A DNA stretch of 64,000 bases from Allokutzneria sp. A3M-2-11 16 (GTDB lineage: Bacteria > Actinomycetota > Actinomycetes > Mycobacteriales > Pseudonocardiaceae), in NCBI RefSeq assembly GCF_024213555.1, contig NZ_JANAVO010000016.1, positions 1-64,000 on the forward strand, given 5' to 3'. The notes below the pieces were generated by a model that worked only from the letters and a program-made list of their open reading frames with translations, had not been told where the DNA came from and ran no database searches. Positions 8,122-52,276 of this stretch are shown here, one piece after another (position 1 is the stretch's first letter; each line of letters starts with the position of its first letter). A program made the position numbers and the translations under genes.

Positions 8122-8305
8122 GCCGCGAAGTGCGCGCACGAACGCTCTCGAAGCCCTTGTGATGATGGGGTCCGCCCAGTTCGGAATGCCTGTAACCGTT
8201 ATCAGGGATACCTCGGGAACTTGGTCGCCAATCGCCTATTTCGGACACCTCGCTCGTGCTTAACTGCATGCGCACACACCAGGTTTCCCGAGAACTGGGG
8301 GTTCA

Positions 8306-10444: not shown

Positions 10445-10471
10445 CACTTAGCGGGGCGATAACGGGAAGAA

Positions 10472-14858: not shown

Positions 14859-14901
14859 CGAACGAGGGAAACGCCGGAGGTCTCCGGCGGGGAGGAAGCG
14901 G

Positions 14902-17173: not shown

Positions 17174-18121
17174 TCAGCGGGAGGCGACGTGTCGCCGGGC
17201 AGGGCGACGAGGGCGCATCGCGTCCTTCGGACCGACCGGGATGAGCTCGAAGTTCTTCTTCAGCGTGCCGAGGCGGTGGATCAGCAGGTCCGGACCGGTC
17301 ACGCAGAGCCGGGTCACGCCGTGCTCCACCAGGGTCGCGGTGATGTGCCCCCAGTGCACCTGGTTGACCACCGAGTCGACCAGCATCGTCCGCACGTCCG
17401 CGCCGGTGGTCACCACCGAGCCGTCCTGGTCGGAGAGCACCGGCAGCGCGGGCGCGGTGAAGGAGAAGCGCGGGTAGACCTCGTCCTGCATCCGCTTGCG
17501 CAGCGGTTCGAGCACCTGCGCGTGCGCGGGCGGGCGCATCGTGGTCAGCGAGTAGCCGCCGAGCTCGCGGACCCGCTGTTTGAATGCGTCCAGGTGACGC
17601 TCGGACATCGTGACCAGGTGCACGTCCTGGTCGAAGTACGCGGAGACCTCGTGCCACTCGCCGCGCCCGGCCATCCCCGCCAGCACCTCCTGGAGCCGCT
17701 CCAGCGGGGTGCGCACGATGAACTGGCTGACCACGTCCTGCTGCTCGGTGCGGTAGTAGTCCAGCTCGCACGCGGCCAGCTCCGCGGTCAGCCGGATCAG
17801 CTCGGCGAAGGGCATCGCGCCGGAGTACGCGGCCGCGGCGCGCTCGCCGAAGCTGGGGCCGACGCACAGCTCGGGGCGTTCGCCGAGGACGTCCTCGGCC
17901 CAGTCCGCCATGGCCAGCGAGTTGACCACGAAGGCGATCTGGGAGGCCGCGGTGTAGCCGTCGCCCGCCGACCGCAGCGCGTCGAGCACCGAGTAGCCCA
18001 GCGCGGCGTCCGCCTCCGCCAGCCTGCGCCGGGCGAACGGGCTGATCATCATGAACCGGCCGACCTCGGAGAAGCGGGACGGGCCCATGCCGGGGAAGAC
18101 GAAGGCGGTGCTCACGGTCAT
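17174..18121 (-). CDS. Discrete acyltransferase, probable starter-unit (4-guanidinobutyryl) transferase
   Basis: 315-aa protein with the malonyl-CoA:ACP transacylase fold. The nucleophile serine is S90 in GPSFGE (usually GHSxG), and the active-site histidine is H200 in PPAHAQ. The N-terminal GQG loop reads FPGMG. The arginine that grips the malonyl carboxylate in ordinary ATs (in xRGRLMQ) seems replaced: the aligned stretch reads LIRLTAELAAC, by eye alignment. A non-carboxylated acyl substrate is therefore likely. Homologous discrete ATs (VinK in macrolactam pathways, and the transferases of guanidino-polyketide clusters) load unusual starters onto the PKS loading ACP. Here it would move the 4-guanidinobutyryl group to the ACP at the start of PKS A. 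It lies 5 bp downstream of the ligase gene in one operon. Confidence 0.83.
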   Translation of the reverse strand: MTVSTAFVFPGMGPSRFSEVGRFMMISPFARRRLAEADAALGYSVLDALRSAGDGYTAASQIAFVVNSLAMADWAEDVLGERPELCVGPSFGERAAAAYSGAMPFAELIRLTAELAACELDYYRTEQQDVVSQFIVRTPLERLQEVLAGMAGRGEWHEVSAYFDQDVHLVTMSERHLDAFKQRVRELGGYSLTTMRPPAHAQVLEPLRKRMQDEVYPRFSFTAPALPVLSDQDGSVVTTGADVRTMLVDSVVNQVHWGHITATLVEHGVTRLCVTGPDLLIHRLGTLKKNFELIPVGPKDAMRPRRPARRHVASR

Positions 18122-18126: not shown

Positions 18127-19551
18127 TCAGCCCTGGTCGGCGGCGGCGAGGACTTCGAGCTGCTTGCGGTCGAACTTGCCGTTGCGGTTGAGCGGGAACT
18201 TCTCCAGCACGGTCACCCGGTTCGGCTGCTCGTAGGGCGGCAGCACCGAGCAGATCAGGTCGCGCCAGTGGCCCGCCTCGCGGCCCTGCTCGTCCTGGAC
18301 GAAGAAGGTCAGGCTGGCACCCCTGCGCTCGCAGGGCAGGGCGACGATCTTGGTCACGCAGCCCTTCGCGGCCAGGCTGTGCTCGATGATCTCCGGGTGC
18401 AGCGTGTGCCCGTTGCGGTGCACGGCCATCTTGCGGCCCGCGATGAACAGGTTGCCCTCGGCGTCGAGGTAGCCGAAGTCGTTGGTCTTGTACCAGTCCC
18501 GGCCGACCGGCTCGATCGCGCCGTCGGCGTCGAGGTAGCCCTCCATCAGGTCCGGGTCCAGCACCTCGATCTCGCCTATCTCGCCGGCGGGCAGCACCGA
18601 GCCGTCCTCCGCGGTGATCCGCAGCTCCAGGCCCGCGACGGCCTGGCCGGCGCCGACCGGGTTGTCCACGGTGGCGAAGGCGACGTTGCCCATCTCCGTG
18701 CTGCCGTAGCTGTCCAGCAGCGGCATCCCGAAGGTCTCGATCGCGCGGTCCACCAGGCCCGGCTCCAGCGGGGCGGCGCCGCTGCACAGCATGCGGACGT
18801 TGCTGAACTCGCCGACCGCGCTCGGCCGCTTGCCGACGATGTTGAGGATGCTGCGGTAGGTCGACGGCGCCGCGTCCACCACGGTGGCCCCGGTCATGCC
18901 CGCGATGCGCAGCGCGCGGTCGAGCCTGCGGTACGGCGCGATCACCAGCGAGCAGCCGACCAGCCACGAGATCAGCACCATGGACAGGCCGTACTGGTGG
19001 TTGAACGGCAGCAGCGGCAGCAGCACGTCGCCGGAGTGGTGGCCGACCAGGTCGGCGTTGCGCCGCAGGTTGGTCAGGAACCGCCCGCCGTTCTTCACCA
19101 CGCCCTTGGGCACGCCGGTGGAACCGGAGGACCACATGATCAGCGCGTCCGGCAGCTTCTCCCACGCGGTGAAGTCCAGGCGCTGGTCGATCGGGGAGCG
19201 GCCAGCGGCGGCGACGGCCAGCTCGTAGGTGTAGACGACCTGCTCGCCGACCGCGATCGGGGCGTCGTCGTCGGCGATGACCAGCTTCACCCCGGACTGG
19301 CGCGTGGTGCGCTGCGTCTGGTCCGGCTTCTCCTGGTGGTCGACGAGCACCACCGAGGTGCCCAGGTGCATCAGCGCGAACAGGGTCGAGAGGTAGGCGA
19401 CGGAGTTGTCCGCCTTGAGCAGCACGCGGTCGCCGTAGCCGATCCCGCGGTCGCGCAGCGCGTCGGCCACCCGCAGCGCGGCCTGTTCGAACTCGGCCAC
19501 CGTCTGCACGGAATCGGGTGCGAAGATTTTCGCGGTCTTCCCAGTGGACAT
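18127..19551 (-). CDS. Acyl-activating ligase (AMP-forming), probable 4-guanidinobutyrate ligase
   Basis: 474-aa ANL-superfamily adenylating enzyme. Core motifs are the P-loop SSGSTGVPKG, YGSTE, the YKTNDFGYLD hinge region, and the catalytic lysine region PLNRNGKFDRKQ near the C-terminus. It should activate the free acid made by the amidohydrolase as acyl-AMP and pass it to CoA or directly to an ACP. The substrate, 4-guanidinobutyrate, is inferred from the neighbouring arginine-processing genes. GGAG at 19562-19565 is 10 nt from the ATG at 19551 and 7 nt from an in-frame GTG at 19554, so the protein may start one residue earlier. The gene is divergent from the amidohydrolase gene, with 244 bp between. 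Confidence 0.85.
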   Translation of the reverse strand: MSTGKTAKIFAPDSVQTVAEFEQAALRVADALRDRGIGYGDRVLLKADNSVAYLSTLFALMHLGTSVVLVDHQEKPDQTQRTTRQSGVKLVIADDDAPIAVGEQVVYTYELAVAAAGRSPIDQRLDFTAWEKLPDALIMWSSGSTGVPKGVVKNGGRFLTNLRRNADLVGHHSGDVLLPLLPFNHQYGLSMVLISWLVGCSLVIAPYRRLDRALRIAGMTGATVVDAAPSTYRSILNIVGKRPSAVGEFSNVRMLCSGAAPLEPGLVDRAIETFGMPLLDSYGSTEMGNVAFATVDNPVGAGQAVAGLELRITAEDGSVLPAGEIGEIEVLDPDLMEGYLDADGAIEPVGRDWYKTNDFGYLDAEGNLFIAGRKMAVHRNGHTLHPEIIEHSLAAKGCVTKIVALPCERRGASLTFFVQDEQGREAGHWRDLICSVLPPYEQPNRVTVLEKFPLNRNGKFDRKQLEVLAAADQG

Positions 19552-19636
19552 CACTATCGAACTCCTTTCCTGGTCCTGATCGAGGCGGATACCCCTCGGA
19601 AGAAGAATCAGGTGATCCGTCGTTCGATGTCGACGC

Positions 19637-19658
19637 CTTGACCGCATGTCTGGTCAAG
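19637..19658. promoter_or_regulatory. Palindrome in the divergent ligase/amidohydrolase promoter region
   Basis: CTTGACC and GGTCAAG form perfect 7-bp arms around an 8-bp spacer. The element sits near the middle of the 244-bp gap between two divergent starter genes, 85 bp from the ligase start and 137 bp from the amidohydrolase start. It is well placed for one regulator to control both. Each arm also contains TTGACC, a possible -35 hexamer on either strand. Confidence 0.5.
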
Positions 19659-19795
19659 TATCGCCAAAGTCGAGGTTATGCCCGGGTGGGGAACGGCTGA
19701 AGGGGTGTCGTTCCACCCGGCGCCCATCGTGAAGTAACTCACGGGGAGGAGCTGATAGCGTCCGTCGCGGAATTGCGTTGAAGGGAACTCGCCCG

Positions 19796-20578
19796 ATGAG
19801 GATCGCCTGCTGGCAGGCCACCGCCCGCCGAACCGATGTGCCCGCCGCACTCCGAGCGCTGCGCGCGCGTGCCGGGGAAGCGGCGGAGGCCGGGGCATCG
19901 TTGCTGGTCACGCCGGAGATGTCGCTGACCGGCTATCACATCGGCGCGCGCAGGCTGCGTCAGCTGGCCGAGCCCGCGGACGGCCCGATGTGCCAGGCGG
20001 TCAGCGAGATCGCCTCGGCCAACGGCATCGCGATCGTGCACGGCTGGCCGGAACTGTCCGGCGGAGGGGTGTACAACTCCGCGCGCCTGGTGGATTCTTC
20101 GGGCGAGGAGTCGGCCACTTACCGCAAGGCCCATCTTTTTGGGGATATCGACCGCAATGCGTTCAGTCCCGGGGATACCGGGCTGGTGCGCGCCGAACTC
20201 GGCGGCGTCCCGGTGGGAATCATTATCTGCTACGACGTGGAATTCCCCGAGTCGGTGCGCGCGCACGCGGTCGCGGGCACCCGGCTGCTGCTGGTGCCGA
20301 CCGCGCTGATGTCGCCGTGGGACTTCGTCGCCGAGACCCTGGTGCCGGCGCGGGCCTTCGAGAGCCAGCTGTTCCTCGCCTACACCAACTGGGTCGGCAG
20401 CGAGCGCGAGCTGAGCTACTGCGGGCTGACCCGGGTGGTCGGCCCGGACGGGCGCGTGGTGGCCGGTCGGCGCGACGGAGAGGGCCTGGTGCTCGCCGAC
20501 CTCGACCTGTCCCTCGTGGACCGGGCGCGCGCGGAGACGACCTACCTCGCCGACCGGCGCCCGGAGCTCTACTCCTGA
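19796..20578 (+). CDS. Nitrilase-fold amidohydrolase, probable 4-guanidinobutanamide hydrolase
   Basis: 260-aa carbon-nitrogen hydrolase. The Glu-Lys-Cys triad is visible: E41 (VTPEMSLTGY), K111 (YRKAHLF) and C145 (IICYDVEFPE). The length is normal for the family. In guanidino-polyketide pathways an enzyme of this type hydrolyses 4-guanidinobutanamide, the product of the arginine oxidase, to 4-guanidinobutyrate. All other enzymes of that route are present nearby. AAGGGAA at 19781-19787 supports the ATG at 19796 over an upstream TTG. It is the first of a + strand series (amidohydrolase, two methyltransferases, PadR pair). Confidence 0.86.
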   Translation: MRIACWQATARRTDVPAALRALRARAGEAAEAGASLLVTPEMSLTGYHIGARRLRQLAEPADGPMCQAVSEIASANGIAIVHGWPELSGGGVYNSARLVDSSGEESATYRKAHLFGDIDRNAFSPGDTGLVRAELGGVPVGIIICYDVEFPESVRAHAVAGTRLLLVPTALMSPWDFVAETLVPARAFESQLFLAYTNWVGSERELSYCGLTRVVGPDGRVVAGRRDGEGLVLADLDLSLVDRARAETTYLADRRPELYS

Positions 20579-20716: not shown

Positions 20717-21535
20717 ATGCGTCGGACCTTTACAGACTTCACCATCGAGGTCGACATGAAGCGCCCGGATTTCCTGCGGAGCAAAGGAAATGGTCAGCGC
20801 AATCTGCTGCTCGGCCGGGCGGTCGCGGAACTCGCGGCGGACCTGCACCACCTGGACGCCATTCAGCAGGAGGTGTTCGTCGACGGTGCGTGGCGCCCGC
20901 ACATCCGCAGTGACTGGTCCTCCAGCGGCGCGGACTACAGCGATTCCTCGCAGCTGCTGATCGAGGGCCAGCAGGTCATGCAGGACTGGGAGCACCCGCT
21001 GATGCGCAAGCTCGCCGAGAACGCCTGCCAGAGCAGGGGCGACATCCTCGAGGTCGGCTTCGGCATGGGCATCTCCGCGGGCTACGTGCAGGCGTGCGGG
21101 GTCCGTTCGCACACCATCATCGAGATCAACAAGGGCGTGGCGGAGCGGTTCGAGGACTGGCGCGCGCAGCGGCCCGGCGCCGACATCCGGCTGGCCTTCG
21201 GCGGCTGGCAGGACGTGATCGACGACCTGGGCCAGTTCGACGGCATCCTCTACGACACCTATCCGACCAACGAGGACGAGTTCGTCAAGACGCTCGGCCC
21301 GAAGGTGGTCACGCTGGCGGCGAACTTCTTCCCGGCCGCGGCCGCGCACCTGCGCCCCGGCGGGACCTTCTCCTACTACACCAACGAGATCGACTCGCTC
21401 AGCCGCGCGCACCAGCGGCTGCTGCTCGAACACTTCAGCTCGTTCGAGGTGGAGCTGGTCCGCGATCTCCACCCGCCGGCCGACTGCACCTACTGGTGGG
21501 CCGACCGCATGGCCGCGGTTACCGCGTACAAATAG
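20717..21535 (+). CDS. GAMT-family guanidine N-methyltransferase
   Basis: 272-aa SAM-dependent methyltransferase closely resembling guanidinoacetate N-methyltransferase (GAMT). The SAM motif is ILEVGFGMGIS (110-120), followed by HTIIEINKGV (132-141), FDGILYDTYP (174-183) and the C-terminal ADCTYWWADR. Two acids that hold the guanidinium group in mammalian GAMT are conserved: E92 (DWEHP, GAMT E45) and D180 (YDTYP, GAMT D134). The enzyme very probably methylates a guanidino nitrogen, either of the starter (arginine, guanidinobutanamide, guanidinobutyrate or its thioester) or of the finished product. ATG 20717 is supported by GGGAG 7 nt upstream; ATG 20756 is an alternative. About 90 N-terminal residues precede the core, similar in role to the lid segment of GAMT. 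Confidence 0.88.
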   Translation: MRRTFTDFTIEVDMKRPDFLRSKGNGQRNLLLGRAVAELAADLHHLDAIQQEVFVDGAWRPHIRSDWSSSGADYSDSSQLLIEGQQVMQDWEHPLMRKLAENACQSRGDILEVGFGMGISAGYVQACGVRSHTIIEINKGVAERFEDWRAQRPGADIRLAFGGWQDVIDDLGQFDGILYDTYPTNEDEFVKTLGPKVVTLAANFFPAAAAHLRPGGTFSYYTNEIDSLSRAHQRLLLEHFSSFEVELVRDLHPPADCTYWWADRMAAVTAYK

Positions 21536-21580
21536 TAATAGAATAAAACGTCGTCACCAATCAGAATGATTAGCGAACCC

Positions 21581-21614
21581 AGGTTCGACATTCCCTTTGC
21601 AATGTCGTTAACCT
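21581..21614 (+). promoter_or_regulatory. Dyad/stem-loop upstream of the PRMT-like gene
   Basis: CGACATT (21586-21592) pairs with AATGTCG (21601-21607) around CCCTTTGC. The outer AGGTT/AACCT extends the stem past a 2-nt bulge. The element lies in an AT-rich 113-bp gap, ends 34 bp before the start codon, and could be an operator or an mRNA leader hairpin. An overlapping small palindrome, GAACC-CA-GGTTC at 21575-21586, could form instead. Confidence 0.5.
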
Positions 21615-21648
21615 CGGGTTACGGCCTTGCGCCTCGGGAGGGGAATTC

Positions 21649-22746
21649 ATGGGTTCCATGCATGTTCAAGCTATTTCCGTCGCCGGACACGACGTTCCTG
21701 TTCGAGTGTGCGACAAAATGGAAATGCCCCTCCTGATGCCCTCGGTCGGCGAGTACCCGATTTATGACCCGCAGGCCTATGAGTTCATGATTGCCGACAA
21801 GCTGCGCACCGACGCCTACCGGGAGGCGGTGCGGGCGCTGGCGCCGGGCCGGGTGGTGCTCGACATCGGCACCGGTCAGGACGCGATCTGGGCGGTGACC
21901 GCGGCCAAGGCCGGGGCGAGCCGCGTGTACGCGATCGAGGTGCTGCGCGACGCGGCGAAGCTGGCCAGGGAGGCGGTGGACCGGGCGGGGGTGGCGGACC
22001 GGGTCACCATCCTGGAGGGCCTGTCCACCGAGATCGAGCTGCCGGAACAGGTGGACCTGCTGGTCTCGGAGATCATCGGCACGATCGGCGGGTCGGAGGG
22101 CGCCGAGGCCGTGCTCGACGACGCCCGCCGCCGGTTCCTCAAGCCCGGCGGGCACTCCATCCCGCACCGCTGCGTGACCACGGTGGCCGCGGTCGACCTC
22201 GGTCGGCTGATGCCGGACCTGGCGTTCGCGCCGATCATGGCGCCGTACGTGGAGCAGGTCTTCGCCAGCGTCGGCCGCCCGTTCGACCTGCGGCTGTGCC
22301 TGATGGGACTGGGCCGCCAGCAGCTCATGTCCACCCAGGCCGAGGTCGAGGACCTGCGGTTCGAGGAACTGCGGCCGGGCTCCGGGGTCGACCGGGCCGA
22401 GCTGCGCGTCACCCGCGCCGGGCGGATGCACGGGCTGGGGCTCGGCATCCGGCTGTGGATCACCGAGGAGGGCACCGCGATCGACTCGATCGCGCAGTGG
22501 ACGAACTGGGCGCCGGTGTTCGTCCCGGTGTCGGAGTCCGGCCTGGAGCTGGCCGAAGGCGATGTCGTCTCGCTGGAGTTCACGAGGAAGCTGAGCGCGG
22601 ACGGCGTGCACCCGGACTACGGGATCAGCGGCGTGGTGCGGCGCGGCGATGCCGTGCTGGCCGACATCTCCTGGGAGTCACCGCACGGTGGCGGGGGGTT
22701 CCGGGAGAACCCGGTCCACCGGTCGCTGTTCCCGCTGCCCCGCTGA
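21649..22746 (+). CDS. PRMT-family (arginine-type) guanidine N-methyltransferase
   Basis: 365-aa SAM methyltransferase with the protein-arginine methyltransferase architecture. SAM motif I is VLDIGTG (70-76), and the acidic residue E97 ends the second strand. The double-E loop that binds the arginine guanidinium is present as E141 and E150 in SEIIGTIGGSE, with the same 9-residue spacing as in PRMT1. A beta-barrel domain follows from about 180, with TNW (in QWTNWAPV) where PRMTs have the THW loop. The N-terminal IYDPQAYEFMIADKLRTDAY resembles the PRMT cofactor-capping helix. Together with the GAMT-like neighbour it suggests a second methyl on the guanidine, on the same or the other terminal nitrogen. 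The start ATG has GGAGGGG upstream; a second ATG is at 21658. Confidence 0.84.
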   Translation: MGSMHVQAISVAGHDVPVRVCDKMEMPLLMPSVGEYPIYDPQAYEFMIADKLRTDAYREAVRALAPGRVVLDIGTGQDAIWAVTAAKAGASRVYAIEVLRDAAKLAREAVDRAGVADRVTILEGLSTEIELPEQVDLLVSEIIGTIGGSEGAEAVLDDARRRFLKPGGHSIPHRCVTTVAAVDLGRLMPDLAFAPIMAPYVEQVFASVGRPFDLRLCLMGLGRQQLMSTQAEVEDLRFEELRPGSGVDRAELRVTRAGRMHGLGLGIRLWITEEGTAIDSIAQWTNWAPVFVPVSESGLELAEGDVVSLEFTRKLSADGVHPDYGISGVVRRGDAVLADISWESPHGGGGFRENPVHRSLFPLPR

Positions 22747-22831: not shown

Positions 22832-23164
22832 GTGGCCGACGCGTCGATGGGGTGGCTGCGGGGAACGCTGGAGCTGGTGCTCGCCGCGGTGCTGGCCGAG
22901 GGCGACCGGCACGGGTACGCGCTGACCCAGCGGATCGCGGAGCTGGGGCTCGGCGCGGTGCGCGGCGGCGCGCTGTACCCGGTGCTGGGCCGGATGGAGG
23001 CGGCCGGGATGGTCGAGGCCGAGTGGGAGGCGGGCCAGGGCGGCCCCGGGCGCAAGGTCTACCGGCTGACCGCGGCCGGGCGGGAGCGGTTGGACGCGGA
23101 GACCGAGCGCTGGCACCACTTCTCCGTCGCCATGGATCGGCTCGTGGGAAAGGCGGCGGGATGA
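22832..23164 (+). CDS. PadR-family transcriptional regulator
   Basis: 110-aa repressor-type regulator. The winged helix covers most of the protein: GTLELVLAAVLAEGDRHGYAL is the first two helices (written here as GTLELVLAAVL and AEGDRHGYAL), LYPVLGRMEAAGMV is the recognition helix region, and the wing GRKVYRLTAAGRE is typical of PadR. A short C-terminal helix for dimerisation follows, as in the PadR-s2 subfamily. Start is GTG at 22832. A large palindrome just upstream is its probable operator. It is coupled by ATGA overlap to a membrane protein, a pairing often seen for PadR regulators whose partner senses an envelope signal. Confidence 0.9.
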   Translation: MADASMGWLRGTLELVLAAVLAEGDRHGYALTQRIAELGLGAVRGGALYPVLGRMEAAGMVEAEWEAGQGGPGRKVYRLTAAGRERLDAETERWHHFSVAMDRLVGKAAG

Positions 23165-23985: not shown

Positions 23986-25650
23986 TCAGAGCTTGAGCGG
24001 GGCCAGGTCGTCGAAGAGGTCGCCGGGGCCGGGGTTGTCGGGGTGGGTGGCGCCGCCGAGGTGGTTGATGACGCCCCACACCGCGTTCAGCGCGGTGGTC
24101 ACGGCGTTCTCCGCGAAACCCGCGACCCAGGAGATGTCGTCACCGGCCATGAAGAAGCCCCGGTGCTCCTCGGCGAACTCCTCCTGCATGAAGTGCGTGA
24201 ACAGCTCGCGCTGGTAGCGGTAGTGGCCGGGCAGGCTCGACTTGAAGGCGCCCATGAAGTACGGCTCGGTCTCCCAGGTGATGGTGACCGGGGGCGCGAT
24301 GATGTGCGAGCGGATGTCGACGTCGGGGTAGATCTGCTTCAACGAAGCCAAGATCACGTCGAGGCGCTCCTCGGCGGTGAGCGTGGCGACCTTGAGCGAG
24401 TCGTCGTTCCACGTGTAGGACAAGCACATCACGCCGGGCTTGTCGGGGCCGTCGTCGAACAGGTACACCCCGCGCGGCAGCCGGTCGGTGAGCGTCATGC
24501 TCATCACGTCGCGGCCGGTCTTGGGATCGCGGTCGCGCCAGAACGGGCGATCGGTCAGCACGAACAGCTTCGAGGAACCCATGTAGTGCGTGCGCTCCAC
24601 GGCGGTCCACAGTTCCTGCGGCAGCAGCGCGGGGTCGCTCTTGATGCGGGACAACAGGTTCCAGCTCTGCGCGGTGTACACGGCGGCGGGGAACTTGCGG
24701 AACTCGCCGGCGGAGTCCTGGACCACGTAACCGGTGGCGGTGCGGTTGATGCTGACGACCGCGGGGCGCGGGGTGCCACCGTGCAGGGACGCGAGCGAGG
24801 TGCCAGCGGGCCAGTGGGTGAGCGACTCCGGCCGGTGCTCCCACAGACCGGTCGGAACCTGTTGGCAGCCACCGAGAATCCGGTGGTGGCGGTCGCTCGC
24901 CTCGGTGTAGACCACGCGCAGGATGTCGAGCATCGAGTTGGTGAAGTCGGTGTCCCAGCCGCCGCAGCCGAAGCCGACCTGGCCGAAGATCTCGCGGTGC
25001 TCGAAGGAGGAGAACGCCGCCGACGAGGCCAGGAACCCGTAGAAGGACTGGTTGTCCAGCTCCGGCACCATGTGGTTCCACAGCGCCTTGATGGTGCCGA
25101 CGTCGCGGCGCGCGATCGCGTCCTCCATCAGCGACATGTCCGCCTTCTCCTGCAGGGCTTTCGCCCACGCGTCGGAGACCTGTTGGTAGACCTCGGGAAG
25201 GTCCTCCTGGGTGCGGGCCCAGTGCGAGACGCCGCGGAGGTTCACCACGGTGCTCGGCGTCGCGGGGGACAGCGGGTTCGGGAACGGCTTGGTCTTCAGT
25301 CCGAGCTTGTCGACGTAGTGGAACAGCGTCGCCGACGGCGGGAAGCGCATCGCGCCCATCTCCGCCTTGACCTCGGGGTGGCCCTCGAAGGCGACCGAGC
25401 GCATCCGCCCGCCCAGCTGGTCGGCCTCGTAGACGACGGGGCGCAACCCGAGCTTCATCAGCTCGTAGGCGGTCACCAGGCCGGAGATGCCGCCCCCGAT
25501 CACCGCGACCTCGGCGCCGTGGTGCTGCGCGGGCAGCGCGCCGAGCCCGGCCGGGTGCTGGACCCACTCGTCGTAGGCGAACGGGAAGTCGGGGCACAGC
25601 ACCGTGGTCGGCTTCGGCTGGTCCTGCTCGTCGGCGTGCGTCGAGACCAT
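23986..25650 (-). CDS. Flavin amine oxidase, probable arginine 2-monooxygenase
   Basis: 554-aa FAD enzyme of the amine oxidase/tryptophan 2-monooxygenase family. The FAD-binding dinucleotide motif is VIGGGISGLVTAYEL (GGGISG at 52-57), with GGRMRS after the second strand and the C-terminal FAD segment GFFMAGDDISWVAGFAENAV. In guanidino-polyketide pathways the enzyme oxidatively decarboxylates L-arginine to 4-guanidinobutanamide (EC 1.13.12.1 type). The presence of an amidohydrolase, ligase, loading acyltransferase and loading ACP nearby makes this the best assignment. GGAGGAGG lies 8 nt before the ATG. It is divergent from the PKS genes, with a 423-bp shared control region. Other amino acids (lysine, tryptophan) cannot be excluded from sequence alone. 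Confidence 0.85.
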   Translation of the reverse strand: MVSTHADEQDQPKPTTVLCPDFPFAYDEWVQHPAGLGALPAQHHGAEVAVIGGGISGLVTAYELMKLGLRPVVYEADQLGGRMRSVAFEGHPEVKAEMGAMRFPPSATLFHYVDKLGLKTKPFPNPLSPATPSTVVNLRGVSHWARTQEDLPEVYQQVSDAWAKALQEKADMSLMEDAIARRDVGTIKALWNHMVPELDNQSFYGFLASSAAFSSFEHREIFGQVGFGCGGWDTDFTNSMLDILRVVYTEASDRHHRILGGCQQVPTGLWEHRPESLTHWPAGTSLASLHGGTPRPAVVSINRTATGYVVQDSAGEFRKFPAAVYTAQSWNLLSRIKSDPALLPQELWTAVERTHYMGSSKLFVLTDRPFWRDRDPKTGRDVMSMTLTDRLPRGVYLFDDGPDKPGVMCLSYTWNDDSLKVATLTAEERLDVILASLKQIYPDVDIRSHIIAPPVTITWETEPYFMGAFKSSLPGHYRYQRELFTHFMQEEFAEEHRGFFMAGDDISWVAGFAENAVTTALNAVWGVINHLGGATHPDNPGPGDLFDDLAPLKL

Positions 25651-26026: not shown

Positions 26027-26073
26027 TTTCGGGTTCGCGGTTTATCTTGCCGACGTAGTTGTGGAGTGCGCTG

Positions 26074-26310
26074 ATGAGCGAGTTCGACGACCTGGTCCGG
26101 ACGATCACGGCCGGGGTGCTGCGGGACATGCTGCCGGACGCGTCGGGCTTCGACGCGCGGCGGACCTTCCTCGAACTCGGTTTCGACTCGATGGCCGTGG
26201 TGGAGCTGCACGCGCGCCTGGTCGCGGCGACCGGGCTGGACCTGCCGGTGACCGTGGTCTACGACCACCCGACGCCCGCCGCGCTGGCCAGGCGCCTCGG
26301 TTCCGGGGAC
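26074..26310 (+). other. Loading ACP of PKS A
   Basis: Acyl carrier domain with phosphopantetheine serine S39 in [11 protein letters not shown] (codon at 26188). It is at the very N-terminus, directly followed by KS1. It is the expected acceptor of the 4-guanidinobutyryl starter. Confidence 0.9.
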
Positions 26311-29300
26311 GCGCCGGAGGAGGCGGTGCCGCAGCGGGTCGTCGCGCCCGGTGAGGACATCGCCATCGTCGGCATCGGCTGCCGTTTTCCCGGTGGGGCG
26401 ACGTCCCCGGAGGAGCTGTGGCGGATCGTCGCCGAGGGCGCCGACGCGATCACCGGGTTCCCCACCGATCGCGGGTGGGACGTGGACGGCCTCTACGACC
26501 CCGATCCGGACAAGCCCGGCAAGACCTACGCGCGCGAGGGCGGGTTCCTGCACGCCGCCGGGGAGTTCGACGCGGAGTTCTTCGGGATCTCGCCTCGTGA
26601 AGCCACCGCGATGGACCCGCAGCAGCGGCTGGTGCTCGAAGCGTCCTGGGAAGCCCTGGAGCGCGCGGGCATCGACCCGAACACCTTGCGCGGCAGCCGT
26701 TCCGGCGTGTTCGTCGGCGTCGAGCCCCAGGAGTACGGGCCGCGGCTGTTCGAGGCCCCGGAAGGTTTCGAGGGCCACCTGATGACCGGCAACGCGCCCA
26801 GTGTGGTGTCGGGGCGCATCGCCTACCTGTTCGGGCTCGAAGGGCCGACGTTCACGGTCGACACGGCGTGCTCCGGCTCGCTGGTCGCGCTGCACGTGGC
26901 CGTGCAGTCGCTGCGGTCCGGGGAGTGCGATCTGGCGCTCGCCGGTGGCGTCGCGGTGATGGGCAGCCCCGGCACGTTCACCGCCTTCTCCCGGCAGCGC
27001 GGCCTCGCGCAGGACGGGCGCTGCAAGTCCTTCGCCGCGTCCGCCGATGGCACCGGGTGGGGCGAGGGCGTCGGAATCCTCGTGGTGGAGCGGCTTTCCG
27101 ACGCCGTCCGCAATGGACACCAGGTGTTGGCGATCGTCCGGGGCACGGCGATCAACTCCGATGGCGCCTCGAACGGGCTGACCGCGCCGAACGGGCTCGC
27201 GCAGCAGCGGGTCATCCGGGACGCGCTCGCCAGCGCCGGACTGTCCACTTCGGACGTCGACGCGGTCGAGGCGCACGGCACCGGCACCCGGCTCGGCGAT
27301 CCCATTGAGGCGCAGGCGCTTCTGGCCACCTACGGCAGGGAGCGCGAGCAGCCGCTGTACCTGGGCTCGATCAAGTCCAACATCGGGCACGCGCAGGCCG
27401 CGGCCGGTGCGGCCGGTGTGATCAAGATGATCATGGCGATCCGGCACGGGGTGCTGCCGAAGTCGCTCAACATCGACGAGCCGACGCCGCAGGTGGACTG
27501 GTCCGCCGGAGCGGTGTCGCTGCTGACTGAGGCTGTGCGGTGGCCTTCGGTCAAGATGCTCGACCCCGCAAGCGGGTCGTCGGTGGACCGGCCGCGTCGT
27601 GCCGGGGTGTCGTCGTTCGGCATCTCGGGCACCAACGCGCACGTGATCATCGAGCAGCCGCCCGCCGTCGACGTCGACGAGGCGCCGGAGTCGGAGGGCG
27701 CACTGCGCGCGCGGATCACCCCGACGCCGTGGGTGCTCTCGGGCAAGACCACTGAAGCCCTGCGCGCGCAGGGGGATCGGCTCAAGTCCTTTGTGGAGGG
27801 AAACCTCCAGCTGCGCCCCGCTGACGTCGGCCTGTCGCTGGCCACCACGCGCGCCGCGCTCGACCACCGCGCCGTCGTCATCGGCACCGGGCGGGACGAG
27901 CTGCTGGCCGGGCTGGACGCGCCGACCGTGCAGGGCACCGTGTCGCCGGGCAAGCTGGCGTTCCTGTTCACCGGGCAGGGTTCGCAGCGGTGGGCGATGG
28001 GGCTCGACCTGTACGAGCGGTTCCCGGTCTTCGCCGACGCGATCGACGAAGCTTGTGGGTATCTCGATCTTCAGCTCGACTTGCCGTTGTTGGACGTGTT
28101 GTTCTCCGAGGAGGGGAGTGCCGAGGCGGAGCTGTTGAACCAGACGGCGTATGCGCAGCCCGCGCTGTTCGCTCTGGAAGTGGCTCTGTATCGGCTGTTG
28201 GAGTCGTGGGGTGTGCGGCCGGACTTCGTGGCCGGGCACTCGATCGGCGAGATCGCCGCCGCGCACGTCGCCGGTGTGCTCAACCTGGACGACGCCGCGA
28301 CGCTCGTCGCGGCGCGCGGTCGGTTGATGCAGGCGCTTCCGGCCGGTGGCGCGATGGTGTCATTGCGGGCTTCCGAGGCTGAGGCTTTGGAACTCCTCGC
28401 GGGGAACGAGCGTGCGGGGATCGCGGCGGTCAACGGGCCGGACTCGGTGGTGATCTCCGGGGACGAGGACGTCGTTCTCGGGATCGGCGAGGCGTGGAAA
28501 GCCAAGGGCGGCAAGGCAAAGCAGCTCAACGTCAGCCACGCGTTCCACTCGCCGCTGATGGCGGGGATGCTGCGCGAGTTCGGCAACCTGGCCGAGCTGT
28601 TGACCTACTCCGAGCCCACCATTCCGTTCGTTTCCACCGTGACCGGCCAGGTCGTCAGCGCGGAGCTGTGCTCCCCGGAGTACTGGGTCGAGCACGTGAG
28701 CCGGGCTGTGCGGTTCCACGATGGCATCCGGACTCTTGAACAGGCCGGGGTCACCACGTACTTGGAGCTGGGGCCGGACGGTGTGCTCACCGCCATGGCC
28801 CAGGACTGCGTCACGACCGACGCTGATGTCGTGTTCCGGGCGGCGCTGCGCCGGGATCGGCCGGAGGAGCCGGAGGTGCTGGCGGCGCTCGCGCAGCTGC
28901 ACGTGCGGGGCGCCTCGGTGGACTGGGCGGCGTTCTTCCCGGCCGACGCGCGCAAGGTCGACCTGCCGACGTATGCCTTCCAGCACCAGCACTTCTGGCT
29001 CCAGGGCTCGGCCGTCACGGGTGACCTGGCCTCGCTCGGCCTCGGTGCCGCTGATCATCCGATGCTCGGCGCGGCGGTTCCGCTGGTCGATGTGGACGGA
29101 TATGTCCTCACTGGACGGTTGTCGCTTTCCACGCACCCGTGGTTGGCGGATCACGTTGTGCTGGATCGGGTTGTGGTGCCCGGGACCGCGCTGGTCGAAC
29201 TCGCAGTGCGCGCCGCCGATGAGGCCGGGTGCGCGCAGGTGGAGGAGCTGACGCTGCAGGCTCCGCTGATGCTGCCGGAGTCGGGCTCCGTGCAGGTGCA

Positions 29301-32300
29301 GGTTTGGGTGGGGCCGCCGGACTCCAGCGGTCGGCGCGCGTTGAGCATCCATTCGCGGCTTGACGGCTGGGTTCAGCACGCCGCGGGGACCCTGGCCGTC
29401 GAGGCCGGAGAGTCGTCGTTCGCACCGGCGCAGTGGCCGCCCGCCGGGGCGAAGGCCGTGTCGTTGGAGGGCGTGTACGCCGAACTGGCCGACACCGGCT
29501 TGATCTACGGGCCGCTGTTCCAGGGGCTGCGCGCCGCGTGGGCTCAGGGCAATGACGTCTACGCCGAGGTGGCGCTCGAAGGGGATTCGGGGTTCGGGTT
29601 GCACCCGGCGCTGTTGGACTCCGCGCTGCACGCGATGGGGCTCGGCGGGGTCGGCAAGGACAACGGCCAGGCGCGGTTGCCGTTCGCGTGGTCCGGTGTC
29701 ACGTTGCACGCGACCGGAGCCACCACGCTGCGCGTCAAGCTGACGTCGAACGGTGCCGATGAGGTTTCGCTGCACGCCATTGACGCGAGCGGCGCGCCGG
29801 TGATCACCGTCGAGTCGTTGGTGTCGCGGGCGGTCACCGCCGAGCAGTTGAAGGCGGCCGATCAGGACCCGTTGTACGGCGTGGACTGGATTCCCGTCGC
29901 GGCGGCGGAGCCCGTGGAGTGGGTCGCTCTCGACTCGGTCGACGGCACGCCGCCTGCCGTCGTGGTGCTGGCTGCCGACTCGGTCAACCAGGTTCTCCTT
30001 GCTGTGCAAGGGTTCCTGGCCGACGAGAAGTTCGCGGACTCGAAGCTTGTTGTGGTGACGGAGGGGGCGGCCGGGCCGGATGTGTCCGATCTGGGCTGTG
30101 CCGCGGTGTGGGGCTTGATCCGGTCGGCGCAGTCGGAGAACCCGGAGCGGTTCGTGCTCGTCGACGGCCCGATGTCGTCGGTCGGCAGCGCTGTCGCGAG
30201 CGGTGAACCGCAGGTTGCCGTGCGCGAGGGCGCGCTGTTCGCGCCGCGTTTGGTCCGGGTTGCCGCGGGAGGTTCGAAGCCGCCGCTCGATGGCACGGTG
30301 TTGATCACCGGCGGCACGGGTGGCCTGGGTGGCTTGCTGGCCAAGCACTTGGTGGTCGAGCACGGCGTGACGAACCTCGTGCTGACCAGCCGTCGCGGTG
30401 GTGCCGCGCCGGGAACCGCCGACCTGAAGGCGGAGCTGGCCGGGCTCGGCGCCGACGTCACGATCGCCGCGTGCGACGCCGCCGACCGGGACGCGTTGGC
30501 CACCGTGCTGCGCGCGGTTCCGGCGGACAGGCCACTGGTGGGTGTGGTGCACGCGGCCGGTGTGCTCGAGGACGGGCTGATCACGTCGCTGACCGTTGAT
30601 CAGGTCGAGAAGGTGTTGCGGCCCAAGGCAGACGCCGCGTGGAACCTGCACGAACTGACGCGCGAGCTCGACCTGTCGCTGTTCGTGCTGTTCTCGTCCA
30701 CGGCCGGTTTGTTCGAGGGCGCCGGGCAGGGCAACTACGCCGCTGCCAACGCTTACCTGGACGCGCTCGCGATGTATCGGCACGGCCAGGGGCTGCCCGC
30801 GCATTCCCTGGTGTGGGGGCTGTGGGCCTCTGGCATGGGTGGTCAGCTCGCTCAGTCCGATGTGGACCGTGCTGCGCGGCAGGGCTTTGGTGCACTGTCC
30901 GCGTCGGATGGCCTGTCGTTGTTCGACGCTGCGGTGGCTGGCGATCGTGCGGTCACCGTGACGATGAAACTGGACACCGCTGCTCTCCAGTCGCATGCAC
31001 GCAATGCGGTAATTCCGTCGTTGCTGCGCGGGCTTGTGCGGACGTCGACGCGGCGCGTGGCGCAGGGCGGCGACAGTGGGGCTTCTCCGCTGGCACAGCG
31101 GCTTGCCGGATTGTCCGCCGCTGACCAGGATCGCGCGTTGCTCGACCTCGTGCGCGCTCAGGTCGCGTCGGTGTTGGGGCACGCGACCACGGACGCGATC
31201 GAGCCGGAGCGCGCGTTCACCGACCTCGGATTCGACTCGCTGACCGCCGTGGAGCTGCGGAATCGGCTCAACAGTGCGACTGGGCTCCGGCTCCCGGCGA
31301 CGTTGGTGTTCGACTACCCGGCGCCCGCGACGCTGGCGGCGTTCATCCGTTCCGAGCTTGTCGGCGCGGAGGAGACCGCGGCTGTCACGGTCACGGCCGC
31401 TGTCGGGCTGGACGAGCCGATCGCGATCGTGGGCATGGCGTGCCGGTACCCGGGCGGCGTGAACTCGCCGGAGGACCTGTGGAACCTGGTCGCGACCAGC
31501 ACTGACGGGATTTCCGGCTTCCCGGTGAACCGCGGTTGGGACCTGGACACGCTGTTCCACCCCGACCCCGACCACCGCGGCACCTCGTACGCCGACCAGG
31601 GTGGCTTCCTGCACGACGCGGACGCCTTCGACGCGGAGTTCTTCGGGATCTCGCCGCGTGAAGCCATCGCGATGGACTCGCAGCAGCGGTTGCTGCTTGA
31701 GGTCTCGTGGGAATCGTTGGAGCGCGCCGGGATCGACCCGATGTCGCTCAAGGGCAGCAACACCGGTGTCTTCGCCGGGATCATGTACTACGACTACGCA
31801 CACGGCCTCAGCTCGATCCCCGAAGAGGTCGAAGGTTATGTCGGCACCGGCACCTCGGCGAGCGTGCTCTCCGGTCGCGTGGCGTACAGCTTCGGCCTGG
31901 AAGGGCCTGCGGTCACTGTGGACACCGCGTGCTCGTCTTCCTTGGTGGCCATGCACATCGCCTCGCAGGCGCTGCGCTCGGGTGAGTGCTCCCTGGCGTT
32001 GGCCGGTGGCGTGACGGTCATGTCCACGCCGGAGACCTTTGTGGACTTCTCCCGGCAGCGCGGTCTGGCCGCGGATGGCCGGAGCAAGTCCTTCGCGGCC
32101 GCGGCGGACGGGACCAGCTGGTCCGAGGGCGTCGGCATGGTCGTGCTGGAGCGCCTGTCCGACGCTGTCCGAAATGGACACCAGATCCTCGCGGTGGTGC
32201 GGGGTTCGGCGATCAACCAGGACGGCGCGTCGAACGGCTTGACCGCGCCCAACGGTCCTTCGCAGCAGCGGGTGATCCGGCAGGCCCTCGCCAACGCCGG

Positions 32301-35300
32301 ACTTGATCCGTCCGATGTGGACGCTGTCGAGGCGCACGGAACGGGCACGCGGCTCGGCGACCCGATCGAGGCTCAGGCGCTGCTCGCCACCTACGGCCAG
32401 GACCGCTTCGAGGACAAGCCGTTGTGGCTCGGCTCGATCAAGTCCAACATCGGTCACACCCAGGCCGCCGCGGGCGTCGCGGGTGTGATCAAGATGGTGC
32501 ACGCCATGCGCAACGGCGTGCTGCCGCAGAGCCTGCACGTGGACGCGCCGACCCCGCACGTCGACTGGTCGGCCGGTGCGGTGTCGCTGCTGACGGAGTC
32601 CATCGAGTGGCCTGCGGTCGATCGCGCTCGTCGGTCCGCCGTGTCGTCGTTCGGTATCTCTGGAACGAATGCCCACCTCATCCTGGAGCAAGGACCTGCT
32701 CTCGATGTGCACGAGGCTCCGGTCGCGGCGGTGACGCCGTGGGTGCTTTCGGGCAAGACCGAGGAGGCCGTGCGGGCTCAGGCTCAGCGGTTGCGGGAGG
32801 CTTCGGGCAACCTCGCCGACATCGGTTTCTCGTTGGCCACCGCTCGTGCCGCCCTGGATGTGCGGGCTGGGGTTGTCGGTTCTAGTCGCGAGGAGTTGCT
32901 TGCGGCGCTTGATGTCTTGGCTTCGGGCGGATCCGCGCCGAACATTGTTCGCGGATCTGCGGTGGCGGGGCGGTTGGCGTTCCTGTTCACCGGTCAGGGT
33001 TCGCAACGGTTCGGGATGGGCGAGGAGTTGTACGCCGCGTACCCGGTGTTCGCGGCGGCTTATGATGAGGTGCGTGCGCTTCTGCCTGCGGCTGCTTCCT
33101 CGCAGGAGGAGTTGAACCAGACGGGTAATGCCCAGCCTGCGTTGTTCGCTCTTGAGGTTGCTCTGTACCGGCTCGTCGAGTCGTGGGGCGTCAAGCCGGA
33201 TTACCTGGTCGGGCATTCGATCGGTGAGTTGGCTGCGGCGCATGTGGCTGGGGTGTTCTCGTTGGAGGACGCTGCTCGTTTGGTGTCGGCTCGTGGTCGG
33301 TTGATGCAGGCTTTGCCTGGTGGTGGGGCCATGATCGCGATCCAGGCGACTGAGGAGGAGGTTTCTTCCAAGCTTGTCGATGGTGTGGACATCGCGGCGA
33401 TCAACGGGCCTACCTCGATCGTCATTTCCGGTGTGGAGGCGGCCGCGCTCGCGGTGGCGGAGCAGTTCAAGGACCGCAAGACCAAGCGGCTCTCTGTGTC
33501 GCACGCGTTCCACTCGTCGTTGATGGACGACATGCTGGCCGATTTCCGCACTGTTGCTGAGTCGATCTCCTACGACGAACCGACGATTCCGTTGGTGTCC
33601 AACGTGACTGGGGCGCTCGGCGAGGCGGTGTCCAATCCGGAGTACTGGGTGCGGCACGTCCGCGACGCGGTGCGCTTCGCCGACGGGATGGCAGTCCTCG
33701 AAGCCGAGGGCGTCACGAAGTACGTGGAGATCGGCCCGGACGGTGTGCTCTCCGCGATGGGCGCGGACTGTGCTAACGGTGTCTTTGTGCCGGTGTTGCG
33801 CAAGAACCGCGACGAGGCGATCACGGCGACGGCCGCGCTGGCGCAGATGCATGCGGTGGGCATCGAGGTCGACTGGACTGCGGTGTTCCCCGGAGCGCAG
33901 CGCGTTGACCTGCCGACTTATGCCTTCCAGCACGGACGTTACTGGCTGCGCGCGGCCGGGCCCGGCGGAGACGCCACCGGCCTGGGCCTCGCCTCGGCCG
34001 ACCACCCGTTGCTCGGTGCTGCGGTTGCCTTGGCAGACACGGATTCCTATCTGTTCACGGGACGGCTTTCGCTGTCCACGCACGGTTGGTTGGCGGACCA
34101 CGCGGTCATGGGCCAGGTGCTCGTGCCGGGCGCCGCGCTGATCGAGCTCGCGGTGCGGGCGGCGGACGAGGCGGGATGCGGGACCGTTGAGGAGCTGATG
34201 CTCCAGGCGCCGCTCGTGCTGCCGGAGTCCGGCGCGATCCAGGTGCAGGTGCACGTGGGCGCGGCGGACGACGACGGTCGGCGGACCATCAACATCCACT
34301 CCCGCAAGCAGGACGGCGTGGACTGGACGCTGCACGCCACCGGAACCGTTGTGCCCAGCGATGCCGCGCCGGAGTTCGACTTCGCCACGTGGCCGCCCGC
34401 CGGAGCCGAGGCCGTTTCCGTTGAGGGGCAGTACGAAACGCTCGCCGAGACCGGTCTCGTCTACGGGCCGACGTTCCAGGGGCTGCGGGCGGCTTGGCGG
34501 AACGGCAACGACGTGTATGCCGAGGTTTCCCTTGGCGAGGGCGATGGGGCGAAGTATGGCCTCCACCCCGCGCTGTTGGACGCGTCGCTGCATGCGATCG
34601 GGATTGGTGAGGACACGCCTGCTTCACTGCCGTTCTCGTGGAGCGGGGTGACGCTGCACGCTTCCGGCGCTGGCGAGCTGCGCGTCAGGTTGACGACGCA
34701 GGACAACGGGTCTGTTTCCATTGCCATCGCCGATGGCACGGGTGCTCCGGTGATGTCGGTGGAGTCGCTTGCGCTGCGCGAGGTTTCGGCTGAGCAGCTG
34801 AAGACCGAGTCGGACCAGTTGTTCCGGCCCGAGTGGGTTTCGGTCGCGCTGGGCGAGCCCGTCGAGTGGATTGCTTACGGCGAAGGCGAAGCGCCCTACG
34901 TCGTGCTGACGATCGAGTCGACCGAGGGCGATGTGCCGGAGGCGGCCCGTGCGCTGTCGCACCGTGTGCTGGACATCGTGCAGCAGTGGTCGTCGGAGGA
35001 TTCGAAGCTCGTCGTGCACACCAAGCCCGGGGATCTCGCGGCGGCCACCGCGTGGGGGCTTGTGCGGACCGCGCAGCAGGAGAATCCCGGTCGCTTCGTG
35101 CTGGTCGAGGGCGAGGCCGACGACGAGCTGCTGGGCAAGGCGCTCGGCACCGGCGAGTCGCAGCTGATGATCCGCGACGACGCCGCGTTCGCGCTGCGGC
35201 TGGTGCCGGCGCGCGAGGACCGCGTGCTGCCGCCCGCCGGGACCGACGCGTGGCGCTTGGGCATGTCCGGCAAGGGAACCCTGGATCACCTGGTCATGGA

Positions 35301-37503: not shown

Positions 37504-37521
37504 TGAGTGTGGGGTTGTGAC

Positions 37522-46500: not shown

Positions 46501-47679
46501 ACCAGCCGTCGCGGCATCGACGCGCCTGGCGCGAAGGAACTCCAGGCGGAGCTGACCGAACTCGGTGCCACCGTGCGGATCGAAGCGTGCGACAGTGCTG
46601 ATCGGAACGCGCTTTCGGCTCTGTTGAGCGGAATCTCGGACCTGACGGGTGTGATCCACACTGCCGGTGTGCTCGACGATGGCGTGATCTCGGCGCTGAC
46701 GCCGGAGCGGGTGGACGGGGTGTTCCGGCCGAAGGTCGACGCCGCGTGGAACCTGCACGAGCTGACGAAGGACCTCAGCCAGTTCGTCGTCTACTCGTCG
46801 GCCGCCGGTGTGCTCGGCGGTCCCGGGCAGGGCAACTACGCCGCCGCCAACTCGTTCCTGGACGCCCTGGTGCGGCTGCGCCGGGAACAGGGCCTCGCCG
46901 GGCAGTCGCTGGCGTGGGGCCTGTGGGAGCAGGACGGTGGTATGGCCGGGGATCTGGGCAGCCAGAACGTCGACCGGATGAGCCGGGACGGTTTCGGGGC
47001 GCTCAGCCACGCCGAGGGCATGGAGATCTTCGATGCCGCGGTCGGGCTGAACCAGCCGGTGCTGGTGCCGATCAAGCTGGACCGCACGGCGTTGCGTGCC
47101 GGGTCGGTCCCCGCGATCCTGCGCGGCCTGGTGCGTGCCCCGGCGCGCCGGGCCGCGCAGGCCGCCGTCGCCGAGACCGTCTCGCTGGCCGACCGGCTCG
47201 CCGCGATGCCCGCGCTGGAGCGGGCCGAAGCGGTGCTGGACGTGGTGCGCGCCCAGGTCGCGGCGGTGCTCGGGCACGGGTCGGGCGCGGAGGTCGATCC
47301 CGATCGTCCGTTCACCGAGCTGGGCTTCGACTCGCTGACGTCGGTGGAGCTGCGGAACCGGCTCAACACGGTCACTTCGCTGCGGTTGACGGCGACGGCG
47401 GTGTTCGACCACCCGACGCCGCAGGCCATGGCCGATCACCTGAAGCCGTTGCTGCTGCCCGCGGAGCAGGCGGAGGAGCCGGTGGAGGTGGACGAGAAGG
47501 CCGTCCGCGCGGCGCTGGCGAAGATCTCCATCGACGACTTCCGCAAGGCCGGGGTGCTCGACGCCCTGGTGCGGCTGGCCGGGTCGGTGGGGCCGGAGAA
47601 CGCCGAGGTCGAGTCCATCGATGAGATGGACGTCAGCGACCTGGTCCAGCGGGCCATGGCGTCGGCAAAGGGCAGCTGA
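37522..47679 (+). CDS. Type I modular polyketide synthase B: modules 3 and 4
   Basis: 3385-aa megasynthase. An N-terminal docking coiled coil ([19 protein letters not shown] and following) is followed by two KS-AT-DH-KR-ACP modules and a C-terminal docking region (about 47480-47670, with a DELVQR-type helix ending in [14 protein letters not shown]). Start is ATG 37522, 18 bp after the PKS A stop, with a GGGG run upstream. Both modules should leave double bonds. AT4 is atypical and may choose another extender. The gene is followed by a 186-bp gap with a large hairpin, unlike the tight A-B junction. Confidence 0.95.
37618..42500 (+). other. Module 3: KS-AT(malonyl)-DH-KR-ACP
   Basis: KS3 Cys codon 38137. 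AT3 has GHSIGE (Ser 39415) and HAFH (39700-39711), malonyl type. DH3 keeps His (40312) and the second Asp ([10 protein letters not shown]), but the HxxxGxxxxP motif reads [10 protein letters not shown], the same Gly-to-Asp change as DH1. KR3 (about 41455-41970) has LDD and YAAAN, B-type. ACP3 serine codon 42385. No ER: only about 460 bp separate the DH end from the KR Rossmann motif. Confidence 0.88.
42555..47460 (+). other. Module 4: KS-AT(atypical)-DH-KR-ACP
   Basis: KS4 Cys codon 43072. AT4 (about 44105-45030) differs from every other AT here: the oxyanion-loop motif is TGGGAQ instead of [17 protein letters not shown] follows, and the specificity motif is QASH (44671-44682) instead of HAFH. 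QASH lies between malonyl HAFH and methylmalonyl YASH, so a methylmalonyl or other branched extender is possible. DH4 is intact ([10 protein letters not shown], His 45289). KR4 has TGGTGDLG, LDD and YAAAN. ACP4 serine codon 47332. Confidence 0.86.
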
Positions 47680-47757
47680 TATACCGAAAAAGGCCAGCTC
47701 AGCCACTGTCTATGTGTTCTCCTACTAGTCCGTGGTTTTGGTTGACCGACCCCCGCG

Positions 47758-47802
47758 ACTGCCCATCCAATGGACCTTGCACAAGGCCGCTGGATGGGCA
47801 GT
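47758..47802 (+). terminator. Large hairpin between PKS B and PKS C
   Basis: Outer arms ACTGCCCATCCA and TGGATGGGCAGT pair perfectly over 12 bp, and an inner CCTTG-CA-CAAGG hairpin lies inside. TTTCG follows. It sits in the 186-bp gap between PKS B and PKS C, 64 bp before the PKS C start, and could be a partial terminator, an RNA-processing site or an operator. Downstream, PKS C has a good ribosome-binding site (GGAGAG). Confidence 0.6.
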
Positions 47803-47865
47803 TTCGCTGTTCAGGGCGTGTTTCTAGCTATTCGTACAGTTGACGCCAGAGAAGCGGAGAGTGGG

Positions 47866-52260: not shown

Positions 52261-52276
52261 GTAGTGGGGATCTCTA

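Follow-up and report, generated by a model that had tools for sequence, protein, structure and literature searches.

Gene content of the locus

The window, that is, the whole stretch of 64,000 nucleotides analysed here, comes from one contig of Allokutzneria sp. A3M-2-11 16 and carries the following features.

17174..18121, minus strand: VinK-like acyltransferase (Pfam VinK_C, E 2.1e-22, for 17174-18115)
18127..19647, minus strand: 4-guanidinobutyrate:CoA ligase (AMP-binding, E 2.7e-53; relatives at 55-75% in other genomes)
19778..20578, plus strand: 4-guanidinobutyramide hydrolase (CN_hydrolase, E 3.9e-46)
20717..21535, plus strand: predicted GAMT-type guanidine N-methyltransferase (sequence, profile, Foldseek, alignment)
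21649..22746, plus strand: predicted PRMT-type guanidine N-methyltransferase (sequence, model, Foldseek, alignment)
22832..23164, plus strand: PadR regulator, co-directional (PadR, E 4.1e-21)
23986..25650, minus strand: predicted L-arginine 2-monooxygenase (amine-oxidase family), making 4-guanidinobutyramide (Amino_oxidase, E 5.6e-51)
26059..64000, plus strand: modular type I polyketide synthase, spanning three full ORFs and the beginning of a fourth (the start at 26059 being a mechanical ORF start)

The polyketide synthase genes extend beyond the window, as far as about C7:85674. In the first synthase protein there are three ACP and two KS stretches, consistent with a loading ACP, and the VinK-like acyltransferase is, going by its sequence, probably the enzyme that would place the starter on it. 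Relatives of the monooxygenase occur in other genomes at 63-74%, and homologues of the amide hydrolase (51-57%) adjoin the monooxygenase in 10 of 16 monooxygenase loci (L148-L163). The arginoketide gene set, as outlined in PMC5082578 and PMC10322714, is present in full in the window: arginine monooxygenase, amide hydrolase, CoA ligase, loading acyltransferase, and a polyketide synthase with a loading ACP. This complete 4-guanidinobutyryl starter gene set bears out an initial annotation of the DNA, which had placed the two methyltransferase genes in a cluster building an arginine-derived polyketide starter; the limits it gave for the two ORFs (20717-21535 and 21649-22746) were exact. These ORFs lie on the same strand with 113 bp between them, and each of the two proteins has one match in its own genome at E 0.001. 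Elsewhere in the window, at 13290-15672, an apolipoprotein N-acyltransferase-like gene that has a match in both sister genomes is followed by a GT2 glycosyltransferase gene; the two are possible glycosylation genes.

The GAMT-type and PRMT-type proteins

Counted from the ATG at 20717, the GAMT-type protein has 272 residues. (A GTG at 20636 gives a longer ORF but is not preferred, the relatives' alignment beginning at 20717.) The protein matches 1xcj by phmmer (E 2.9e-26) and 3orh by profile (E 2.8e-49); all four distinct PDB sequences that it matches are GAMTs, as are the best five Foldseek matches of its model (34-35% identity), which is itself of mediocre to moderate confidence (pLDDT 67). 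No Pfam or NCBIfam family was matched at E 0.001. With GAMT (1xcj, 3orh) it shares the fold, the WE and D acids, and a C-terminal PPADC motif; it differs in its longer N-terminus and its polyketide-cluster setting, and its substrate is presumably of the 4-guanidinobutyryl type, unlike that of GAMT proper. E92 and D180, which we take to be the GAMT residues that bind guanidinium, line up with the acids of GAMT's WE and LYDTYP. Both are kept in all eight GAMT sequences from the genome searches. In an alignment of 34 rows (32 of the 80 loci of a genome scan, the window, and G034) E92 is found in 33, the exception having Q, and D180 in all 34.

The PRMT-type protein has 365 residues and a model of pLDDT 91.9. 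Its phmmer match is to PRMT6 (E 2.3e-20), and its sole match to a Pfam PRMT family is to PRMT5, slightly below the cut-off (22.5 versus 22.9 bits). PRMTs make up all 50 Foldseek matches listed, over 318-350 alignment columns and with 20-25% identity to PRMT1/PRMT6; by this fold match the protein consists of a Rossmann domain and a C-terminal beta-barrel. The TM values of about 0.63-0.68 and rmsd of 5-9 Å suggest that the two halves of the model may differ in their relative orientation. E141 and E150 line up with the double-E loop of PRMT6, nine residues apart. These two acids and W287 are kept in all rows of a 33-row alignment, made after a first one of 15 sequences; its rows include second copies, copies from three plasmids, ten Streptomyces loci, and a domain within a Nostoc nonribosomal peptide synthetase. 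A further PRMT motif is known as the THW loop; in our alignment the W is preceded by N, S or C, and by H in none of the 33 rows. The window protein is thus like PRMT1/PRMT6 in its N-terminal motif, double-E loop and beta-barrel, and unlike them in having TNW where they have THW and in its small-molecule gene company.

Both identities proposed in the initial annotation, GAMT-like with E92/D180 and PRMT-like with the double-E loop E141/E150, withstand this scrutiny, and the structure predictions it had called for agree with them, the models matching GAMT (best five) and PRMT (all 50 listed) and the acids lining up in sequence. The profile match and fold matches across most of the length rule out a chance resemblance. 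It went too far, however, in calling the folds unrelated: hhalign aligns the two proteins over 107 columns with a probability of 84.7%, and a class I core is all that they have in common. Conservation of these acids is an argument for guanidinium binding by both enzymes, and very probably both act on guanidines.

Natural variation in Allokutzneria

All three Allokutzneria genomes in the sample (the window genome G000, G034 and G068) have the cluster. In G034 the GAMT gene is followed by the PRMT gene as in the window, at 95 and 89% identity, respectively. The G068 cluster retains the ligase, amidase, GAMT, PadR and monooxygenase genes but lacks the PRMT gene. The flanks of the site have 81-83% DNA identity. 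Neither blastn nor tblastn found a PRMT remnant between its GAMT and PadR genes, and no PRMT-like gene was found elsewhere in this genome (95% complete) at E 1e-20. GAMT is accordingly the constant part of the system and PRMT the optional one. At the PRMT's place in the sister genomes, G068 has a DUF222-type gene (L032:10759-11871). In the two Allokutzneria genomes compared, dN/dS is 0.14 for GAMT and 0.29 for PRMT, as against 0.13-0.23 for four neighbouring pathway genes; both methyltransferase genes are under purifying selection.

Among the loci examined, GAMT and PRMT stand side by side in Allokutzneria only. A GAMT gene is in the fetched neighbourhood of two of 29 full-length PRMT-like loci, both from Allokutzneria, the contigs ending early in G074 and G845. 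Reciprocally, the genome scan gave 80 GAMT loci and no PRMT match at any of them (0/80); the stretch covered is under 20 kb at many of these loci, and the scan may lack records close to the window. Among the titles and abstract openings listed in capped literature searches none names such a pair, which is not proof of its absence.

GAMT relatives and the ECO-0501 locus

GAMT relatives (threshold E 1e-10) occur in eight of the 297 genomes of the family sample. In six of the eight the guanidinobutyrate ligase is found as well; it is present in 30 of the 297 overall (Fisher p 1.6e-5); the six are three Allokutzneria, two of Amycolatopsis type, and G040, where the two genes are on separate contigs. 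In G123, an A. keratiniphila genome (the contig is that of L060), the GAMT gene, with 72% identity to that of the window, is 1 kb from an arginine monooxygenase gene and is followed by genes for UDP-glucose dehydrogenase, an AMP ligase, a PLP enzyme, an AMP ligase, and a polyketide synthase. This order is that of ORFs 13 and 15-18 of the published ECO-0501 cluster (PMC8037709), in a comparison that leaves aside the place of ORF14 (glycosyltransferase). The ligase gene is 78 kb from the monooxygenase in G204 and on a separate contig in G123. According to the MS data given in PMC10221244, ECO-0501 yields methylguanidine fragments, and N-demethyl ECO-0501 is annotated alongside it in A. keratiniphila DPA04, which is not the strain of G123; the fragments fit a methyl on the internal or a terminal nitrogen equally. 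The ECO-0501 cluster resembles the window in having an arginine monooxygenase adjoining GAMT and a product with a methylguanidine. It differs in carrying genes for other end groups, and G123 and G204 have no PRMT-like gene at E 1e-20.

In two Phytohabitans genomes a GAMT gene (72-74%), with no PRMT match at the locus, adjoins a polyketide synthase, with the ligase and monooxygenase 56-62 kb off and the intervening stretch known at its ends only. Across the genome scan, a KS-like match is present at 17 of the 80 GAMT loci within the stretches covered. The GAMT tree, from which four of 37 rows (200 residues or fewer) were left out, groups the pathway-linked GAMTs together, one branch appearing in just 46% of bootstrap trees. 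More distant relatives include those at nine Nitrospirota loci between L063 and L076 (51-53%), with a ketosynthase-like match nearby, and those at Frankia-type loci between L087 and L109 (42-51%, in many genomes), where no ketosynthase match was found in the stretches covered.

PRMT relatives and their linkage to the ligase

Relatives of the PRMT were called at E 1e-20 and full-length ones at E 1e-60. In the family sample 28 of 297 genomes have a relative and 15 a full-length one; the ligase is present in six of the 15 (p 0.002) and seven of the 28 (p 0.014). In the six, PRMT and ligase are linked in G000, G034 and G086, 1.1 Mb apart in G146, and on separate contigs in G040 and G074. Neither GAMT nor a full-length PRMT is present in 21 of the 30 ligase-bearing family genomes. 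In a Streptomyces sample of 246 genomes, 17 have a relative and nine a full-length one, the latter being present in 8 of the 16 ligase-bearing genomes and in 1 of the 230 others (p 4e-10). The association has p 8e-7 when all 17 are counted and p 2e-5 after close relatives were collapsed, by hand and in the one cell only; some ligase matches with one or two TGA codons inside the aligned stretch were retained. An arginine monooxygenase match is found in all nine Streptomyces genomes with a full-length PRMT.

At six of the 29 full-length PRMT loci (G000, G034, G086, G920, G849 and G727), which represent three PRMT clades, the ligase is at most 5 kb away, start to start; it was not found within 20 kb on the contig for the other 23. 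Four of the six, the family genome G086 and the Streptomyces genomes G920, G849 and G727, have PRMT adjoining the ligase with no GAMT found in the fetched neighbourhood. The nearest relative outside Allokutzneria is the PRMT of G156 (63%), with which the window protein groups in the tree, apart from the G086/G920 clade. Linkage to the ligase needs at least two changes on this tree, so the window PRMT could have another guanidine substrate.

Two other arrangements are of note. In G266 genes for a ketosynthase and a nonribosomal peptide synthetase lie downstream of two tandem PRMT-like genes (L042:8202-10643; 53 and 51% to that of the window). In Nostoc sp. ATCC 53789, a PRMT-like domain (37%; L258:9001-10047, plasmid pNsp_c) with an intact double-E loop is embedded within a nonribosomal peptide synthetase.

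A predicted two-methyltransferase route and its alternatives

What is directly established comprises the genes, their folds and conserved acids, the full starter gene set, the recurrent linkage of each family, and purifying selection; as an observation this is real, conserved, and functionally coherent. Comparative genomics supports a tie of the GAMT and PRMT families, each in its own right, to the arginine-primed polyketide pathway. Together with the guanidine-binding acids, this makes the stepwise methylation suggested in the initial annotation the best reading, and we think it reasonably probable that two guanidine N-methyltransferases tailor the arginine-derived end of one polyketide, GAMT adding one methyl and PRMT another to give a mono- to dimethylguanidine product. 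In such a route oxidation of arginine would give 4-guanidinobutyramide, whose hydrolysis product would be activated as its CoA ester before transfer to the synthase. The GAMT-type enzyme, common to related clusters, would put one methyl on the guanidine, and the PRMT-type enzyme, accessory in two of the three Allokutzneria genomes, would add a further one. Also in favour of this reading is the company of the G156 PRMT, which lies near arginine-decarboxylase and amine-oxidase genes. Against it stand the 21 ligase-bearing family genomes with neither enzyme, the weaker association of PRMT with the ligase in that family, the 23 PRMT loci for which no such ligase was found within 20 kb, the position of the window PRMT in the tree, the moderate confidence of the GAMT model, and the methylation of azalomycin in S. 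lividans by a host enzyme (PMC5082578). If true, this would plainly be an instance in which two families of methyltransferase have converged on a single guanidine.

The nitrogen that GAMT proper methylates is the substituted one, and PRMTs target the terminal nitrogens. PMC5572114 covers this preference in part. Azalomycin F, a marginolactone, is built on a 4-guanidinobutyryl starter, as the product of the window is predicted to be. Its forms F3a, F4a and F5a carry zero, one and two guanidine methyls, respectively, the two of F5a being on two different nitrogens and giving one 6H singlet (PMC3705372). The window PRMT would thus be expected to methylate a terminal nitrogen. When S. lividans with the azalomycin cluster was fed unmethylated 4-guanidinobutyramide, F3a, F4a and F5a were all formed (PMC5082578), a result in favour of methylation no earlier than the starter stage. 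We infer that both enzymes share one product, that GAMT acts first, which nitrogens are involved, and that methylation falls on or after the starter instead of on free arginine.

Small-molecule guanidine methylation has precedents. SznE is a PRMT-like enzyme. It forms N-omega-methylarginine for streptozotocin (PMC11705231), and the saskemycin cluster is marked by a 31% SznE homologue (PMC12637814). BlsL methylates a guanidine in blasticidin S (PMC5572114). SznE/StzE and the saskemycin homologue are like the window enzymes, as we read them, in methylating a small-molecule arginine guanidine, but have free arginine as their known or inferred substrate (PMC11705231, PMC12637814); BlsL is likewise a guanidine N-methyltransferase of an antibiotic cluster, but its target is the delta-N of beta-arginine on a nucleoside (PMC5572114). 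In all these cases the likeness is by description, not sequence. The precedents make small-molecule use less odd than the initial annotation held: with SznE, the saskemycin homologue, BlsL and the GAMT of the locus matching that of ECO-0501 known, the view that such use is in itself unusual finds no support. What is unusual, judged by the counts of 2/29 and 0/80, is the pair.

These precedents also lend some weight to a division of labour, in which the PRMT would methylate free L-arginine ahead of the starter pathway, as SznE does, and GAMT would take a later intermediate or the completed product as its substrate. Two sets of PRMT neighbours point the same way. The G156 gene is 5-7 kb from genes for a pyruvoyl arginine decarboxylase, an amidohydrolase, and a monooxygenase relative (36-41%). 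On two Streptomyces linear plasmids (L259 and L260, about 3200-11100) a PRMT-like gene (41-42%) ends a row of amidinotransferase, cupin, DUF3865, GFA, arginine-deiminase-family, antiporter and nitroreductase genes; the best PDB match of the L259 deiminase-family protein is dimethylarginine dimethylaminohydrolase, and the row looks, from these sequences, like a methylarginine pathway. No SznF-type neighbour was found in this operon, the cupin protein having no match beyond a cupin-4 structure (E 0.007). Of the amidinotransferase, cupin, DUF3865 and deiminase-family genes, a third plasmid carries the deiminase-family gene alone. Against a free-arginine step, the feeding experiment indicates that methylation can come after the 4-guanidinobutyramide stage, and members of three PRMT clades adjoin the CoA ligase, whose substrate is 4-guanidinobutyrate. 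On balance we regard this division of labour as unlikely, at perhaps one chance in several.

Still less likely is that one enzyme only acts on the product and that the other serves a different metabolite or is a relic. G068 shows that the cluster can exist without PRMT, and most PRMT loci have no ligase that we found nearby. Against this reading are the dN/dS values, 0.14 and 0.29 beside 0.13-0.23 for the four pathway neighbours, and the placing of the two genes, which lie next to each other and point the same way in each of the two genomes where both occur. That the PRMT-type enzyme methylates proteins, for instance the synthase or a regulator, would suit its fold and double-E loop but is highly improbable, given relatives that accompany small-molecule genes (one copy being inside a nonribosomal peptide synthetase) and the lack of H before the loop W.

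Orphan Streptomyces PRMT genes and azalomycin

Guanidine methylation of arginine-primed antibiotics is known, yet the azalomycin cluster as described in PMC5082578 has neither a monooxygenase nor any methyltransferase, in this differing from the window, and the kanchanamycin cluster described there likewise encodes no guanidine-methylating enzyme. The present locus supplies two cluster-encoded candidates, a natural comparison in G068, and a short list of orphan Streptomyces PRMT genes; what is new is the joint occurrence of GAMT and PRMT in one pathway, together with the lead that the orphan PRMT genes offer for products of the azalomycin type.

The orphans (53-55%; L248-L252) are in four Streptomyces genomes of 10.9-12 Mb, G751, G791, G845 and G860, each of which has two ligases. 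They lie away from the ligase, more than 250 kb on the same contig where this is measurable, the G845 contig being short. In each genome one ligase adjoins a monooxygenase; no monooxygenase was found adjoining the second, G845 being fragmented. The five orphan genes and the ligase-adjoining genes of G086 and G920 form a seven-row clade with support 100/100. We infer that the four strains are azalomycin producers, and the orphan PRMT is a candidate for the azalomycin guanidine methyltransferase. For mediomycin, a tailoring enzyme is encoded 670 kb from the cluster (PMC5704753).

A broader proposal, to which we give somewhat less than an even chance, is that a PRMT-derived subfamily is dedicated to the guanidines of arginine-primed polyketides, the azalomycin group included, and that Allokutzneria recruited a GAMT in addition, GAMT adding the first methyl and PRMT the second, so that two separately evolved enzymes would make one dimethylguanidine. 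The azalomycin enzyme would then not yet have been found because its gene is far outside the cluster. Transfer of the methyltransferase-free azalomycin cluster to S. lividans gave methylated azalomycins (PMC5082578); some host enzyme thus appears able to methylate, which counts against the orphan PRMT as the azalomycin enzyme. As to the effect of the modification, azalomycin F4a is not a DstH substrate (PMC4737276), and a methylated guanidine seems to be closed to the amidinohydrolase by which the amine is unmasked in related compounds.
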